Shown here one piece after another: positions 40,871 to 46,755 of a stretch of 64,000 nucleotides of DNA. Under the pieces are notes generated by a model. It did not search any database. It worked only from the letters and a program-made list of their open reading frames with translations, and had not been told where the DNA came from. Source of the DNA: Pirellulales bacterium (GTDB lineage: Bacteria; Planctomycetota; Planctomycetia; Pirellulales; JAEUIK01); assembly GCA_019745975.1 (NCBI GenBank), contig JAIESQ010000035.1:62001-126000 (forward strand), given 5' to 3'. Position numbers and translations under genes: made by a program. The first letter of the stretch is position 1, and each line of letters starts with the position of its first letter.

Positions 40871-41881
40871 ATGTCCGGGCCGCAATCCGAAACGTCGCCT
40901 TCCGCCCCGGAGCGTTCGTCGCGGACCATTCGCTTTCGATCGTTCCGCAATCAGGATCCGCCACAACTGGCCGAGATCTGGCGTGCCCGAGCGCGCGAAC
41001 GCGGACTGATGCACCCGATGTCGTCCGAATTGTTCGAGCAGCTCGTGCTGTCGAAGCCCTACTTCGACAAGGAAGGGCTGATTGTCGCGCTCGATGGCGA
41101 AGTGGCCGTGGGCTTCGTGCATGCCGCCTTTGGCCCGACCGAGGACGAGCGCGGGCTTTCAACGCGGTTTGGCGTGACGGCCATGCTCATGGTGCGGCCC
41201 GACTATCGCCGCCTGGGAATCGGCCGCCAGTTGCTCGCGCAGAGCGAGGCTTACCTGCATGGCCGCGGCGCGGAAGTGCTCTACGGCGGAGGCATCTATC
41301 CGCTCAATGCCTTTTATCTAGGGCTATACGGCGGTAGCGAACTGCCGGGCGTGCTCGATTCGGATGTCGAGGCGCAGCGACTTTACCACGCGGCCGGCTA
41401 CGAAGAGATCGACCGTTGCCTGGTGCTCCATCGCGAGCTCAAGGCCTTTCGCCCGCTGATCAGCCGCGAGCAACTGGCAGTGCGCCGCGAGACAACCTTG
41501 CGGGAGACCGCGGATCCAGTCTCGCACACCTGGTGGGAGGCCTGCACGCTGGGGGCGTTCGACCGCACGCGCCACGAGCTGGTTTCAAACGCCACGCAAG
41601 AAGTGCTGGCCGGTGCCACGACTTGGAATATGGAACCCCTCTCGGCGAGTTGGGGGGTGCGCAGCGTGGGACTCATCAACGTGGCCGTGCAACCAGAGCA
41701 TCAGCGCCGGGGGCTGGCCACGTTTCTGCTGGGCGAGATCTTCCGTCGGCTTCAGCAGTCGGGCGTGGCCCTGGTGGAGACGCAAACGATGCAGCGCGAG
41801 CATAGCGCGGCCGTGGCCTTGTACGCCCGTTTGGGCTTCAAGCAGGTCGACTGCGGATCAGTCTTCCGAAAGCAGGGATGA
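40871..41881 (+). CDS. protein with two GNAT acetyltransferase domains
   Basis: The 336-residue product carries two GNAT domains. The N-terminal acetyl-CoA binding motif is MVRPDYRRLGIGRQLLAQ (about residues 110-127). The C-terminal one is VAVQPEHQRRGLATFLLGE (about 272-290), with REHSAAVALYARLGFKQVD near the end. Double GNAT proteins often have one catalytic and one degenerate domain; both motifs here are intact. The substrate is unknown. It follows the Rieske gene by about 20 bp on the same strand. Confidence 0.9.
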   Translation: MSGPQSETSPSAPERSSRTIRFRSFRNQDPPQLAEIWRARARERGLMHPMSSELFEQLVLSKPYFDKEGLIVALDGEVAVGFVHAAFGPTEDERGLSTRFGVTAMLMVRPDYRRLGIGRQLLAQSEAYLHGRGAEVLYGGGIYPLNAFYLGLYGGSELPGVLDSDVEAQRLYHAAGYEEIDRCLVLHRELKAFRPLISREQLAVRRETTLRETADPVSHTWWEACTLGAFDRTRHELVSNATQEVLAGATTWNMEPLSASWGVRSVGLINVAVQPEHQRRGLATFLLGEIFRRLQQSGVALVETQTMQREHSAAVALYARLGFKQVDCGSVFRKQG

Positions 41882-41954
41882 TCCTGAGGTGGCCCGCTCG
41901 CCAGAGCTGCGAATTCGTCGCTGGCGATTCGCAGGTGACGAGAATCACCAAGCG

Positions 41955-42089
41955 GACACGGAAAGGACGCGCTGTCGAATCACGAACTCGAGTGCGGGGG
42001 GTGACTCCGGGCCCGAAGTCGCTCGATAAGACCGCACCTGCGTGGCAAAGGCGTCGTTGCCCTTCGGCGAGCTTGGCCCTTTCCGTGTC
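41955..42089. other. possible structured region with 12-bp inverted repeat
   Basis: A perfect 12-bp inverted repeat GACACGGAAAGG (41955-41966) / CCTTTCCGTGTC (42078-42089) encloses 111 bases rich in smaller GC stems. It lies in the gap between convergent genes, the GNAT gene (plus) and the Cys-rich gene (minus). It could be a small RNA or a long 3' structure. Confidence 0.35.
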
Positions 42090-42253
42090 ACGAGCCAGAA
42101 GACACGGCCGCCGGCCGTGAGGTCTCCTGCTCCCGACGCTTGGCGAAACTTCACTAATTGAACAGTACCGCGCTGCAGCGAAAAAAGTCAAATGAAAATT
42201 GCCGGCGGCGACCGCGCTGGTGCCAGCGCATGAACGACGCACGCCCGAGCGCA

Positions 42254-42288
42254 CAAAAAAAGGCCCAGCCACTGGCGTGACTGAGCCT
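42254..42288 (-). terminator. intrinsic terminator of the Cys-rich gene
   Basis: On the minus strand an 11-bp stem (GGCTCAGTCAC paired with GTGGCTGGGCC, loop GCCA) is followed by seven T residues. It lies about 110 bases past the stop of the Cys-rich protein gene. Confidence 0.88.
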
Positions 42289-42399
42289 GACGAATCAACC
42301 GTACCGAGCCGGCACCGCGCGGATGCACTTCACGCGCCGCCATGTGCCAGCCAGCGCAAGAGAGCGGCGGCCTGTGATCGCCGGCGCTCCATTCGCGCC

Positions 42400-42810
42400 T
42401 TACGTACTGCGGAAACTCGTCGAACGATACTCGAACTGCTGTGCCCGCGGATGCACGCCGCGCTGGGTCGTGATGACGGCGCTACGCGATTCGGGGCCGA
42501 CGCGGCTGGCCTGCGGTTCGGCTTCCTTGGCGTCGTCCTTGTCGTCGTCCGCTTCGCCACCGCAGCAGCTACTGCTGCAGCAATCGCTGCTGCACGAGCA
42601 GGAGCACCAGCAGCAGCAACGACGAGCGCGTCGGGCTGCGCGGCGCGCGGCACGGCGGCAGCGGAAGCAGCAGCATGAGCAGCAACTGCTGCAGCTATAG
42701 CAGCCGCAGCAATCGGCGGTCTGCGTCGCCGTAGCTGGCTCCGAATTGAGCAGCGAGATGCCGATCACCGCCGCGAACAGCATCAGACCATAAACAAGTG
42801 CACGATTCAT
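42400..42810 (-). CDS. secreted extremely Cys-rich small protein
   Basis: A 136-residue product starting at ATG 42810 after a GGGGGTG site. A signal peptide (ALVYGLMLFAAVIGISLL, ending near SEPATAT) is followed by a core of about 50 residues with roughly 20 Cys. The Cys lie in CC, CSC and CCC clusters split by an Arg/Ala-repeat (RRAARRAARRARR). After it comes an acidic stretch (EADDDKDDAKEAE) and a polar tail. No known family is recognised. Disulfide or metal-loaded material is plausible. It has its own terminator and is transcribed alone. Confidence 0.8.
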   Translation of the reverse strand: MNRALVYGLMLFAAVIGISLLNSEPATATQTADCCGCYSCSSCCSCCCFRCRRAARRAARRARRCCCWCSCSCSSDCCSSSCCGGEADDDKDDAKEAEPQASRVGPESRSAVITTQRGVHPRAQQFEYRSTSFRST

Positions 42811-43728
42811 CTCTCGCACCCCCTTTCCAAAGGGAAGACTCCGTGTTGACACTCCGTCCGTCAAATCATCCGCTGGCCTGCGAATTCGTGCACAAGGCGG
42901 CCAGCGGCGCAATCCTTCGTGGCAGGGCGAGTCTGTCCGAATTCAAGCGGCTGCGGTGAGTGCTTCACGAGCACGGCACCGCTTTCCCGCGGTCGCGTGC
43001 GGCCAACAGCTCCGCCACCAGGCGACGGCTTAGAATTGCGATCCGTCGCAGGAGCGAACTCTCGATCCGCTACCCAACAAGTAGACAAATCTCGGCGCTG
43101 CACACCTCCATGAGTTCTGAGACTAGCGCCAAACTTATCGAACTTGATCGCGACTTGTCAACCAAATTCCACGCTCGCGAGGTAGATCATTTTCTGTTTC
43201 TTCACGTGAGTCAGCACGAGTCGAGATAATGTGGCAATTTGCTGTCCAAAAGAGCACTCATTGCGTTGCGGGTGCGTAGCTGGTGCGTCCGGGCAGTGGT
43301 CTCCGCACATTGGCCTGATGGTATTCCTCGCTGCGCGGAGAATGACCCCCGGGCGGACCAGCGGAAGACCGGGAGCCCCGAGCGAATGCGCTCCAGTTGG
43401 CTCACTCGCAGCGCAGCTACCAATCACCGTGCGAAAACGCCTGACACGCATGTAACAAGGCGCTGCGCCGTGCGCCATTGCAGAGAGGCACTCATCGCCG
43501 CGTGCGAAACTCTGCCTCGTCCGCGTGTGATCCAATCGCGCCCACGCAACATTGGCGAAGTTCATGCGTCCCGCAGCCGCCGCAGCCTCGTTTCGCGCCG
43601 TCCGCTCGGCGGACGACCGGCTCTGGCCGCGCACTTGTGTTAACGCGGTATATCGCAATACTTTATTGGTTCCGCCTGACCCTCAAAGCCATCACCGCGA
43701 AGCGCCCCTAGCGGGCAGCGGCAACACC
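42811..43728. other. long intergenic region with a degraded peptide
   Basis: About 900 bp upstream of both the Cys-rich gene (minus) and the ABC permease (plus). A 39-codon plus-strand stretch at 43110-43229 (MSSETSAKLIELDRDLSTKF...) looks protein-like and may be a gene remnant. Otherwise only overlapping random frames are seen. No repeat of the dispersed families was found. Confidence 0.35.
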
Positions 43729-44886
43729 ATGCGGCTCTGGAACGTCGTTGTTAAAAACGTTTTACGTCGCAAAACACGCTCGCTGCTGACGGCCAGCGGC
43801 GTCGCGGTCGCCATCGGTTCGGTCGTGGCCCTGCTGGGGGTTTCGCGTGGCTACCAGCAGACCTCCGAGGACCTTTACGCCAATCGGGGGGTCGATCTGG
43901 TGGTAGTTCGGGCTGGCGTCGCCCTGGCCAGCGCCATGGACGAGAGTTACGCCGAGCTCCTCAAGGCCCTCCCGCATGTCGATCGCGTCGGTTACAGCCT
44001 GGGCGACAACGTCTCGTTTGGCGACGACGTGCTGAGCATCCGCATCCACGGCTGGCCGGTCGGCAGCTATGCCTTTGAAACTCTTAACCTGACCGAAGGC
44101 CGCGGGATCACCGACGCCGACGCGGCCATGGATGGTTCCGGCGGGGTGTTGCTGGGCAAGTCACTGGCCGAGCGACTTAACAAAAAACTAGGTGATGCCA
44201 CCGAGATCGAGGGGACCCCCTTCAAAGTGGTGGGCATCTTTCAAAGCGCCAACATTATCGAGAACGGCGCCGCAGTGCTGCCGCTAGCTGCCCTGCAGAA
44301 GATCATGCAGCGCGAAGGTCAAGTGAACGAATTCCAAATCACGATCAAGAAACACTCGCCGGAAGCGGATCGCCAGGCGATGCAAGAATTGCGCAAACAG
44401 ATCGAAGCCCTCAAGGTCGACGGCGAGCGCTTGGGCCTGGTCGCGCAGCCGTCGATGGAGTTCGTTAACAGCCGCGCCGAAGTGCGCATGTCGCGCGCCA
44501 TGTCGTTCATCATTTCCGGGATCGCGCTGTTGATCGGCTCGGTGGGCATGCTCAACACGATGGTCATGTCGGTGCTGGAGCGCACGCAGGAGATCGGGTT
44601 GTTGCGGGCCATCGGCTGGCGCAAGACGCGGATCACGCGCATGATCTTGCTCGAAGCGCTCGTGCTCAGCGTCGTTGGTTGCCTGGCGGGCACGCTGGCG
44701 GCCCTGGGGCTGACACTGGCCCTCAGCAGCGCGCCCGTCGTGCAAGGGGTAATTCAACGTGGCATCACCCCGGGTGTGGTGGGTGCCGGATTCGTGATGT
44801 CCTTAGTGGTTGGTTTGGCGGGCGGATTGTACCCGGCGTATCGGGGAGCAAGTTTGCCGCCGACGGAGGCCTTGCGTTATGAGTAG
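43729..44886 (+). CDS. MacB/LolC-type ABC transporter permease 1
   Basis: The 385-residue permease has the FtsX/MacB layout. An N-terminal membrane helix (LLTASGVAVAIGSVVALLGV) precedes a large periplasmic domain (about 45-270), then three C-terminal helices (IISGIALLIGSVGMLNTMVM, LVLSVVGCLAGTLAALGLTL, GVVGAGFVMSLVVGLAGG). The conserved coupling segment ERTQEIGLLRAIGWRK is present. It works with the following ATPase and second permease as a LolCDE-like or MacB-like exporter. The ATG at 43729 is chosen for the hydrophobic start. Its stop overlaps the ATPase start by eight bases. Confidence 0.92.
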   Translation: MRLWNVVVKNVLRRKTRSLLTASGVAVAIGSVVALLGVSRGYQQTSEDLYANRGVDLVVVRAGVALASAMDESYAELLKALPHVDRVGYSLGDNVSFGDDVLSIRIHGWPVGSYAFETLNLTEGRGITDADAAMDGSGGVLLGKSLAERLNKKLGDATEIEGTPFKVVGIFQSANIIENGAAVLPLAALQKIMQREGQVNEFQITIKKHSPEADRQAMQELRKQIEALKVDGERLGLVAQPSMEFVNSRAEVRMSRAMSFIISGIALLIGSVGMLNTMVMSVLERTQEIGLLRAIGWRKTRITRMILLEALVLSVVGCLAGTLAALGLTLALSSAPVVQGVIQRGITPGVVGAGFVMSLVVGLAGGLYPAYRGASLPPTEALRYE

Positions 44887-45631
44887 CCCTGGAACGGCGA
44901 CCGCGGTCGAACGGCGCACACAACCTGCCGCGCCGGCGATCTTGCGAGCGGTCAACTTGCGGCGCACCTACGCCGATGGCCAGGTAACCGCCCTTAACGA
45001 CGTGTCGCTTGAGGTTCATCCCGGCGAATACGTGGCGATCATGGGGCGCAGCGGCAGCGGCAAGTCGACGCTCTTAAACCTGCTGGGGGCCCTCGATCGG
45101 CCCGATCAGGGCGAAATCTATTTTGAGGGTGAGGCGCTCTCCAAACAGCGCAATCTCGACAGTTTCCGAGCCCAGCGGATCGGTTTTGTGTTTCAGTCGT
45201 TCTACTTGCTCCCCACGCTGACGGCGATCGAAAACGTGCAGATTCCGATGTTCGAGGGGCCACTGAACCCCACGCAGCGGGCCGATCGCGCTCGTGAACT
45301 GCTTAAAATCGTCAACCTCGAGCATCGCCTGAACCATCTGCCGATGGAGTTGTCCGTCGGTGAACGCCAACGCGTGGCGATCGCCCGCGCTTTGGCCAAC
45401 GAGCCCGCCATGCTGTTGGCCGATGAGCCGACGGGCAATCTCGATTCGACCAACGAGGCCGAGGTGCTCGACCTGTTCGATCGCTTGCATCGCGAGCGCA
45501 ACATGACTCTGGTCGTCATCACCCACAGTCAGGACGTTGCCGATCGTGCCGAGCGAACAGTGCACCTTCGCGACGGACGGATTGTTGCCGACGTTGTCGC
45601 CCATCACACTCCCAACTCGAGTCGGTCATGA
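44879..45631 (+). CDS. LolD/MacB-type ABC transporter ATPase
   Basis: A 250-residue ABC ATPase. Walker A is GRSGSGKST, the Q loop is in FVFQSFYLLPTLTA, the signature LSVGERQRVAIARAL (a Val in place of the usual Gly), Walker B MLLADEPTGNLDS, and the His switch VVITHSQDVA. It energises the two flanking permeases for export of lipoproteins, peptides or macrolide-like compounds. It starts within the end of the first permease gene and overlaps the second by ATGA, so all three are one operon. Confidence 0.95.
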   Translation: MSSPGTATAVERRTQPAAPAILRAVNLRRTYADGQVTALNDVSLEVHPGEYVAIMGRSGSGKSTLLNLLGALDRPDQGEIYFEGEALSKQRNLDSFRAQRIGFVFQSFYLLPTLTAIENVQIPMFEGPLNPTQRADRARELLKIVNLEHRLNHLPMELSVGERQRVAIARALANEPAMLLADEPTGNLDSTNEAEVLDLFDRLHRERNMTLVVITHSQDVADRAERTVHLRDGRIVADVVAHHTPNSSRS

Positions 45632-46755
45632 GCTTCTTCAGCATTCCGCTCAAGAGCCTATTGCGCCGCCGCACGCGCAGCGCGCTGACGATTCTTGGCC
45701 TGGGGATCGCCTTGGCAGCAGTGATCTCGCTGGTGGGCATTTCGCAAGGCTTCGAGCGCTCGTTCGTGCGGATGTATCAGCGCCGCGGCGTCGACTTGCT
45801 CGTGCAGCGCTCGGGTGGCGGCAATCGCAAGGACAAGACGCTCAGCGTCAAGCTCGACCCCAAACTGCGGGCGATCAAAGGGGTGCGCGACGTCGACGGC
45901 GGATTGATGGACATGATCGCCATGCCCGAGTTCGACCAGTTCGCCATTATCCTCAACGGCCTGCCGGGCAATTCGCCCGAACTGACGCGCGCCAATGTTA
46001 TCGACGGGCGACGGCTCGAACCGACCGACGAGCGCTCGCTCATGCTCGGCAAAGTGCTGGCGCTGAACATCGGCGCCAAAGTCGGCGACGACGTGAAGAT
46101 CTACGAACAGCCCTACAAGGTAGTGGGCATCTACGAAAGCCCCACGGTGTTCGAGAATGGCGGCGCGATCATCCTGCTTGAGGATTTGCAGCGGCTCACC
46201 GACCTCAATGGCAAGGTGACCGGCTTTGCCGTTTCGATCGACCATCCGGGAAATGAGGCCGAGGTCGCGCGAATCGCCCGCGAAATCCAAGCGCTCGAGC
46301 CGCATCTCGAGGCGATGCGGCCCGACAAGCTCGTCGCCGAAGTTCAAGAAGTGAAAGCGGCCAAGGCCACGGCCTGGATCACCTCGGCGATCGCGCTGGT
46401 GATCGGCGCCATTGGCATGCTCAACACGATGGTCATGTCGGTTTTCGAGCGGACGCGCGAGATCGGCACGCTGCGCGCGATCGGCTGGCGGAAGAGCCGC
46501 GTGATGCGGCTGATCCTGCTCGAGGCGACCTTCTTGAGCATTAGCGGCGCGGTCGCCGGCGCGATTGCCGCCGTCGGCATCACCAAGATCATGAGCAGCC
46601 TGCCGCTCACCAACGGCTACATCGGCAGCGAGATCGCCCCGGCCGTATTCGTGCAGGGATTCGTGATCGCCCTGCTGGTTGGGTTTTTCGGCTCGCTTTA
46701 TCCCGCCTGGTGGGGGGCAAGCCTGTCGCCGATCGAGGCGCTAAGGCGCAAGTAG
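45628..46755 (+). CDS. MacB/LolE-type ABC transporter permease 2
   Basis: The 375-residue product is a paralogue of the upstream permease. It has an N-terminal helix (ALTILGLGIALAAVISLVGI), a periplasmic domain, the ERTREIGTLRAIGWRKSRV coupling motif and three C-terminal helices (ITSAIALVIGAIGMLNTMVM and two further). Two different permeases plus one ATPase match LolCDE/MacB heteromeric exporters. It overlaps the ATPase gene. It is convergent with the LPS-kinase-like gene. Confidence 0.92.
   Translation: MSFFSIPLKSLLRRRTRSALTILGLGIALAAVISLVGISQGFERSFVRMYQRRGVDLLVQRSGGGNRKDKTLSVKLDPKLRAIKGVRDVDGGLMDMIAMPEFDQFAIILNGLPGNSPELTRANVIDGRRLEPTDERSLMLGKVLALNIGAKVGDDVKIYEQPYKVVGIYESPTVFENGGAIILLEDLQRLTDLNGKVTGFAVSIDHPGNEAEVARIAREIQALEPHLEAMRPDKLVAEVQEVKAAKATAWITSAIALVIGAIGMLNTMVMSVFERTREIGTLRAIGWRKSRVMRLILLEATFLSISGAVAGAIAAVGITKIMSSLPLTNGYIGSEIAPAVFVQGFVIALLVGFFGSLYPAWWGASLSPIEALRRK

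Follow-up and report, generated by a model that had tools for sequence, protein, structure and literature searches.

We analyzed a 64,000-nucleotide stretch of DNA from a Pirellulales bacterium (hereafter the window) and found that one frame on its minus strand is, as its features and its relatives indicate, a real gene for a small Cys-packed protein exported by a predicted Sec-type signal peptide. The protein is not an orphan and, by profile comparison, is a member of an apparently unnamed Cys-rich family of Pirellulales, the CHGC family. Within this family the window copy is, judged by its composition, a divergent extra paralog in which His and Gly are replaced by Ser, Ala and Arg. Among the possible roles of the protein we placed first that of an exported, disordered, disulfide cross-linkable envelope material, a tentative choice that we hold at somewhat less than even likelihood.

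The Cys-rich gene and its predicted product

The gene occupies positions 42400-42810 of the window (minus strand) and encodes 136 aa and a stop; the coding sequence without the stop spans 42403-42810 and its translation (P0001) is MNRALVYGLMLFAAVIGISLLNSEPATATQTADCCGCYSCSSCCSCCCFRCRRAARRAARRARRCCCWCSCSCSSDCCSSSCCGGEADDDKDDAKEAEPQASRVGPESRSAVITTQRGVHPRAQQFEYRSTSFRST. The protein contains 20 Cys, every one encoded by TGC, that fall into two clusters of ten with CC, CxC and CCC patterns. The first cluster (residues 34-52, 42655-42711) stops just short of the Arg-Ala block, a basic segment RRAARRAARRARR (residues 52-64, 42619-42657) that separates it from the second cluster (residues 65-83, 42562-42618). 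The first-pass annotation had described about 20 Cys in 50 residues split by Arg-Ala repeats, and the count proved exact: the densest 50-residue stretch held exactly 20 Cys, and the runner-up among 739 open segments in the six frames of the window held 9.

An acidic tail had also been proposed. The second cluster is indeed followed by an acidic stretch, GGEADDDKDDAKEAE (mapped as GGEADDDKDDAKEAEP, residues 84-99, 42514-42561), but the last 38 or so residues are not acidic. The C-terminal tail (residues 100-136, 42403-42513) carries the single His of the protein and ends in YRSTSFRST, which by comparison with the family appears to be an eroded form of the VSFRR ending. At the N-terminus, the hydrophobic head MNRALVYGLMLFAAVIGISLL is followed by ATA, read by eye as a plausible signal-peptidase site, and residues 1-29 (42724-42810) were assigned to a putative signal peptide with a provisional cleavage position. 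An AlphaFold2 model of the protein (49 sequences) had a mean pLDDT of 60.4 and a pTM of 0.29 and was confident in the signal helix only (residues 3-21); this low confidence may stem from a poor alignment instead of disorder. No PDB relative was found. Comparison with Pfam gave just two sub-threshold matches, both to unrelated families and neither to a metallothionein family, and comparison with NCBIfam gave no match, TIGR03000 included.

A longer frame with a TTG start (42400-42912) was considered unlikely and the ATG was preferred, because relatives begin at ATG (MNR in 51 of 52). The ribosome-binding region (42811-42832) contains GGGGG, so the site that had been called good is present, but most relatives have a stronger one, GGAGGA. 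The G+C content by codon position was 0.53/0.66/0.74. At 111 nt past the stop, a 12-pair stem (42288-42261) is followed by TTTTTT, forming a candidate intrinsic terminator. The terminator scan returned 2 sites where 1.8 were expected in shuffled sequence, and the hairpin is therefore weak evidence by itself. The gene is flanked by a GNAT protein gene (40871-41881, plus strand) on one side and by a MacB/FtsX-type ABC set (43552-46755, plus strand) on the other, the latter with one ATPase gene between two related permeases. A non-coding RNA at the locus was rejected, as there was no Rfam match in 41880-43750. No DNA similar to the locus was found in plasmids, which gives no support for a mobile origin.

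Family relationships and origin of the window copy

Used alone as a query, P0001 identified a paralog in the same genome (contig C202; 44% identity over residues 1-103, E 6.0e-9) and, in other genomes, several proteins that share its head, among the matches one in G023 (E 1.7e-7). At E<=1 this search reported 46 of 57 genomes, many by chance (6 loci read back were clearly non-members), and the count was not used. The relatives read back start with MNR[AT]L-FGIAIFFAVVGIALLGGE--A-AG and continue with CHGCHGC-like repeats. We then used a profile of 14 sequences (A1), the window protein among them; it matched the window protein over its whole length at E 9.9e-27, a value obtained with a profile that contains the protein itself. 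This profile placed three members in the genome of the window, including the window copy, and matched 100 of 196 Pirellulales genomes at E<=1e-5, while in a phylum sample of 199 genomes it matched 2, the genome of the window and one of the same order. A wider profile of 49 sequences (A5) matched 57 of 297 class genomes at E<=1e-4; 49 of these belong to the same order, and the 8 from other orders were weak matches (E 1.5e-12 to 4.7e-5), mostly without the export head. Among the relatives that carry names are Blastopirellula marina DSM 3645 (a Pirellulales member), Pirellula sp. and metagenome-assembled genomes labelled Pirellulales. The canonical copy of the genome lies on C202 at 107078-107476. 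Short members of the family (P0001 and four others) gave no convincing Pfam or NCBIfam match, and no description of the family was found in the open-licence literature searched.

The first-pass annotation had called for a search for homologs with the same alternation and had taken a lack of homologs as grounds against its reading. Relatives in which Cys clusters alternate with a basic block were found, and that ground therefore falls away. The Arg-Ala repeat is peculiar to the window copy; the middle block of its relatives is rich in His, Arg and Lys and often reads GLFxRLxxR.

The layout of the family was measured on 52 full-length members of 111-247 aa (median 139). An MNR start was present in 51, a count partly built into the search pattern, a strict A-x-A after the hydrophobic core in 48, and the ribosome-site pattern in 50. 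A hairpin with a T run within 220 nt of the stop was found for 47 of the 52 members as compared to 4 of 260 shuffled stretches; on this comparison the terminator claimed for the window gene holds, as does the earlier view of a real, single gene with its own terminator and a product exported by its sequence features. The terminators (47/52) and ribosome sites (50/52) suit a stand-alone transcription unit, as predicted from the sequences. The number of Cys ranged from 8 to 27 (median 19.5), was odd in 29 members, and the spacing was not fixed. In 31 members the block between the Cys stretches exceeded 95% of shuffled versions of that protein in basicity. Most relatives have many His residues (CHGC, CHGRCHGR repeats), and one relative (L097) contains CCQPSCCQPSCC, which we take to be the pattern of ultra-high-sulfur keratin-associated proteins.

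A C-terminal VxFRR motif was detected by a loose pattern in 29 members, and the window copy was counted among them only since the pattern admits T-x-F-R plus two residues. A role of the motif as a genome-wide sorting signal found no support, because the genome of the window had 2 sites (one of them the canonical copy) as compared to 1 in the reversed control.

The window copy begins with MNR, has the A-x-A after an export head, exceeds the family minimum of 8 Cys and is followed by the intrinsic terminator, with 4.6% Gly against a median of 16.5%, 0.9% His against 5.6%, and high Ser and Arg. No ortholog was found in 396 Pirellulales genomes; the sole other genome above threshold, G023, bears a canonical-type copy. 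The GNAT neighborhoods of six relatives in the same taxonomic family, two of them on short contigs, contained no such Cys-rich gene. The taxonomic family was sampled by seven genomes, one per genus, and the set contained no second genome of the genus of the window; at this sampling, the missing ortholog and the GNAT neighborhoods without the gene therefore point to a lineage-restricted, divergent paralog. The same findings, together with the lost His/Gly pattern, the eroded C-terminal motif and the weaker ribosome site, would fit a decaying or neutral duplicate that has no present function. We consider this improbable, since the frame is intact, all 20 Cys are kept and are all TGC, and the export head and terminator are retained.

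Gene neighborhoods and a parallel TIGR03000 cassette

Typical copies stand 5' of a gene for a single-TM protein (the partner), which is followed by a gene for an HTTM-like multi-pass membrane protein. Over 40 loci (39 relatives and the window), several of them interrupted by contig ends, the recurring same-strand genes were an upstream putative lipoprotein (30), the downstream partner (24) and the multi-pass protein (23). Within the genome of the window, the C202 copy has the lipoprotein, partner and multi-pass genes, and the window copy (contig C199) and a copy on C140 have none. A P-loop ATPase gene upstream of the canonical cassette (L059:3994-5490, plus strand) scored 95.8 bits against the anti-phage family NF053860 (cut-off 370), and a similar ATPase is upstream in 15 of the 40 loci.

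Among the best matches to the multi-pass gene (HTTM-A, n=62), 44 were preceded by a same-strand Cys-rich gene at a distance of 842-1432 bp. Profile A5 added G031 (935 bp), G064 (1022 bp) and G104 (1136 bp), bringing the number to 47. Of the others, 3 had a Cys-rich gene 14-43 kb away on the same contig and 9 on another contig; the last three (G001, G016 and G053) had no Cys-rich match, on contigs that leave at most about 0.6 kb ahead of the partner gene. Conversely, some genomes with a Cys-rich profile match gave no HTTM match (e.g. G038, G065, G072 and G078). A terminator normally stands between the Cys-rich and partner genes. On these neighborhoods, the HTTM protein may be linked to the Cys-rich family.

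The HTTM-A model (pLDDT 90) resembled human gamma-carboxylase GGCX with a Z of 21.7 and 3.9 A over 281 residues; the first unrelated row had a Z of 6.2. By sequence, neither HTTM alignment (A2 or A6) matched GGCX among PDB sequences, none of 23 HTTM-A members matched the Pfam HTTM family, and neither the HTTM-A nor the partner proteins had any Pfam match. A paralog in the same genomes, HTTM-B, did match PF05090: in the mixed alignment A6, a match was obtained for 7 of the 12 members, the best at 4.2e-13. The SdpB-family model TIGR04033 matched 6 of 23 HTTM-A proteins weakly (best 1.2e-9), two members scoring 19.4 and 20.8 bits against a cut-off of 178.4. The GGCX-like motif retains its Lys in 15 of 23 HTTM-A proteins (the copy of this genome has M) and in 8 of 8 HTTM-B. 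From the resemblance of the motif, this Lys may correspond to the catalytic base K218 of GGCX; titles among the GGCX-type structure matches mention a K217A/K218A mutant.

In 7 of 8 loci, HTTM-B and a partner gene come immediately after a TIGR03000 gene; the eighth (G010) has no TIGR03000 gene. The TIGR03000 proteins beside HTTM-B look exported, with Ser/Gly-rich repeats and a basic block, and one reads GGLFSRMRANRANRVANRAARRAARSS. The genome of the window has both arrangements, with one partner-HTTM pair after the canonical Cys-rich gene (C202) and the other after a Ser/Gly-rich TIGR03000 gene (C158). It also encodes a 247-aa hybrid (L060:5706-6449, minus strand) with a Cys-rich family head and a TIGR03000 tail (64.6 bits, cut-off 43.1), and by its domain content this hybrid ties the two families together. 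The open-licence literature yielded no paper on TIGR03000 and none on a vitamin K-dependent carboxylase in Planctomycetes. It is conceivable, if doubtful, that the partner and HTTM proteins form an undescribed Pirellulales maturation cassette that modifies or assembles exported low-complexity envelope proteins in two versions, with Cys/Gly-rich and Ser/Gly-rich TIGR03000 substrates, and that the window gene is a stray, fast-diverging substrate copy that has lost the repeats and the neighbors. If so, the window copy would be a natural experiment on the residues that the system needs. Should the HTTM pair act on Cys-rich proteins, the vitamin K gamma-carboxylase fold would be linked to bacterial envelope building and a testable HTTM substrate would be at hand. 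In any case, a nameless annotation class can now be placed in a family with a conserved layout and neighborhood.

Proposed role, alternatives and likeness to known systems

The first-pass annotation had suggested metal binding, cross-linked surface material or a post-translationally modified peptide. Cross-linkable material was placed first because of the predicted export, the apparent lack of a fold, the variable Cys number without parity and the stand-alone unit; the keratin-like pattern of L097 and the Cys-rich proteins reported in planctomycete cell walls also speak for it. Since the number of Cys varies from 8 to 27, is odd in 29 of 52 members and is variably spaced, complete intra-chain pairing is not selected. 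We propose that Sec export and removal of the signal peptide would leave a mature chain of ~107 residues, probably disordered, with a strongly basic block set between two thiol-rich clusters and the acidic stretch after them. The thiols could form inter-chain disulfides, perhaps also with other envelope proteins, to give a cross-linked proteinaceous envelope material, and the basic block would bind acidic polymers. A typical member might be matured or handled by the neighboring partner-HTTM pair; the window copy would use that pair in trans or not at all.

The main rival is an extracytoplasmic metal chelator, a secreted metallothionein-like buffer that would bind Cu, Zn or Cd through the Cys clusters, joined in relatives by His. 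The CC, CxC and CCC clusters and the 20 Cys in 136 residues argue for it, and the CHGC and CHGRCHGR repeats of the relatives fit metal binding better than pure cross-linking. They favor it more than the window copy does, which has one His, in the tail. The very variable number and spacing of Cys argue against it, no metal transporter or sensor adjoins the window gene between its GNAT and MacB-like flanks, and an oxidizing envelope would compete with metals for the thiols. We regard a chelator as unlikely.

Less plausible still is that the protein is made as the precursor of an exported peptide and is modified or processed by the partner-HTTM pair, much as SdpC of Bacillus depends on SdpA and SdpB for its processing. 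The position of HTTM-A genes directly 3' of a Cys-rich gene (44 of 62, or 47 with A5), the GGCX-like model and the weak TIGR04033 matches are consistent with it. SdpA and SdpB are needed for SdpC processing (PMC6818787), and an HTTM protein is assumed to join linaridin maturation, its role in peptide maturation being called unclear there (PMC9927463). On the other hand, no partner or HTTM gene is near the window copy, the GGCX-like Lys is not kept in all HTTM-A and is M in this genome, and terminators intervene between the Cys-rich and partner genes. Some relatives, such as L016, are nearly Glu-free outside the leader, and Glu carboxylation therefore cannot be the general role. A bufferin or other MNIO-modified RiPP was rejected, as no MNIO (PF05114) gene adjoins a Cys-rich copy. 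The genome of the window has two MNIO genes, one on C124 and one on C202 at a distance of ~40 kb from the canonical copy, and the window contig has none; each of the two is followed by an overlapping frame, possibly the usual MNIO partner protein.

The closest likeness of the window copy is to the canonical CHGC copies, such as those on C202 and in Blastopirellula marina DSM 3645, with which it has in common the signal peptide, a basic block bordered by two Cys-rich stretches and a monocistronic terminator, and whose acidic or Pro/Ala tail and C-terminal motif are comparable. It differs in having Ser, Ala and Arg for Gly and His, no partner or HTTM neighbors and an eroded C-terminal motif. The TIGR03000 proteins of Planctomycetes are, like the CHGC family, exported, of low complexity, with a basic block and usually followed by a partner-HTTM pair (7/8 loci), but they have Ser/Gly in place of Cys and a TIGR03000 domain that the window protein lacks. 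SdpABC of Bacillus subtilis resembles the typical CHGC locus in that an exported precursor is accompanied by a small partner and by a multi-pass protein of HTTM/SdpB-like type; it differs in that a hydrophobic C-terminal toxin domain is missing from the Cys-rich protein, the SdpB match is weak and the terminators are separate. Cys-rich YTV proteins are reported in planctomycete cell walls (PMC8567305) and are exported and envelope-located as we propose for the window protein. Comparison of the window protein with Pfam and NCBIfam gave no YTV match. YTV proteins are also much larger. Finally, OmcA and OmcB of chlamydiae, members of the same PVC group, are Cys-rich, exported, disulfide-linked envelope proteins, and in these traits they would resemble the window protein as proposed here.
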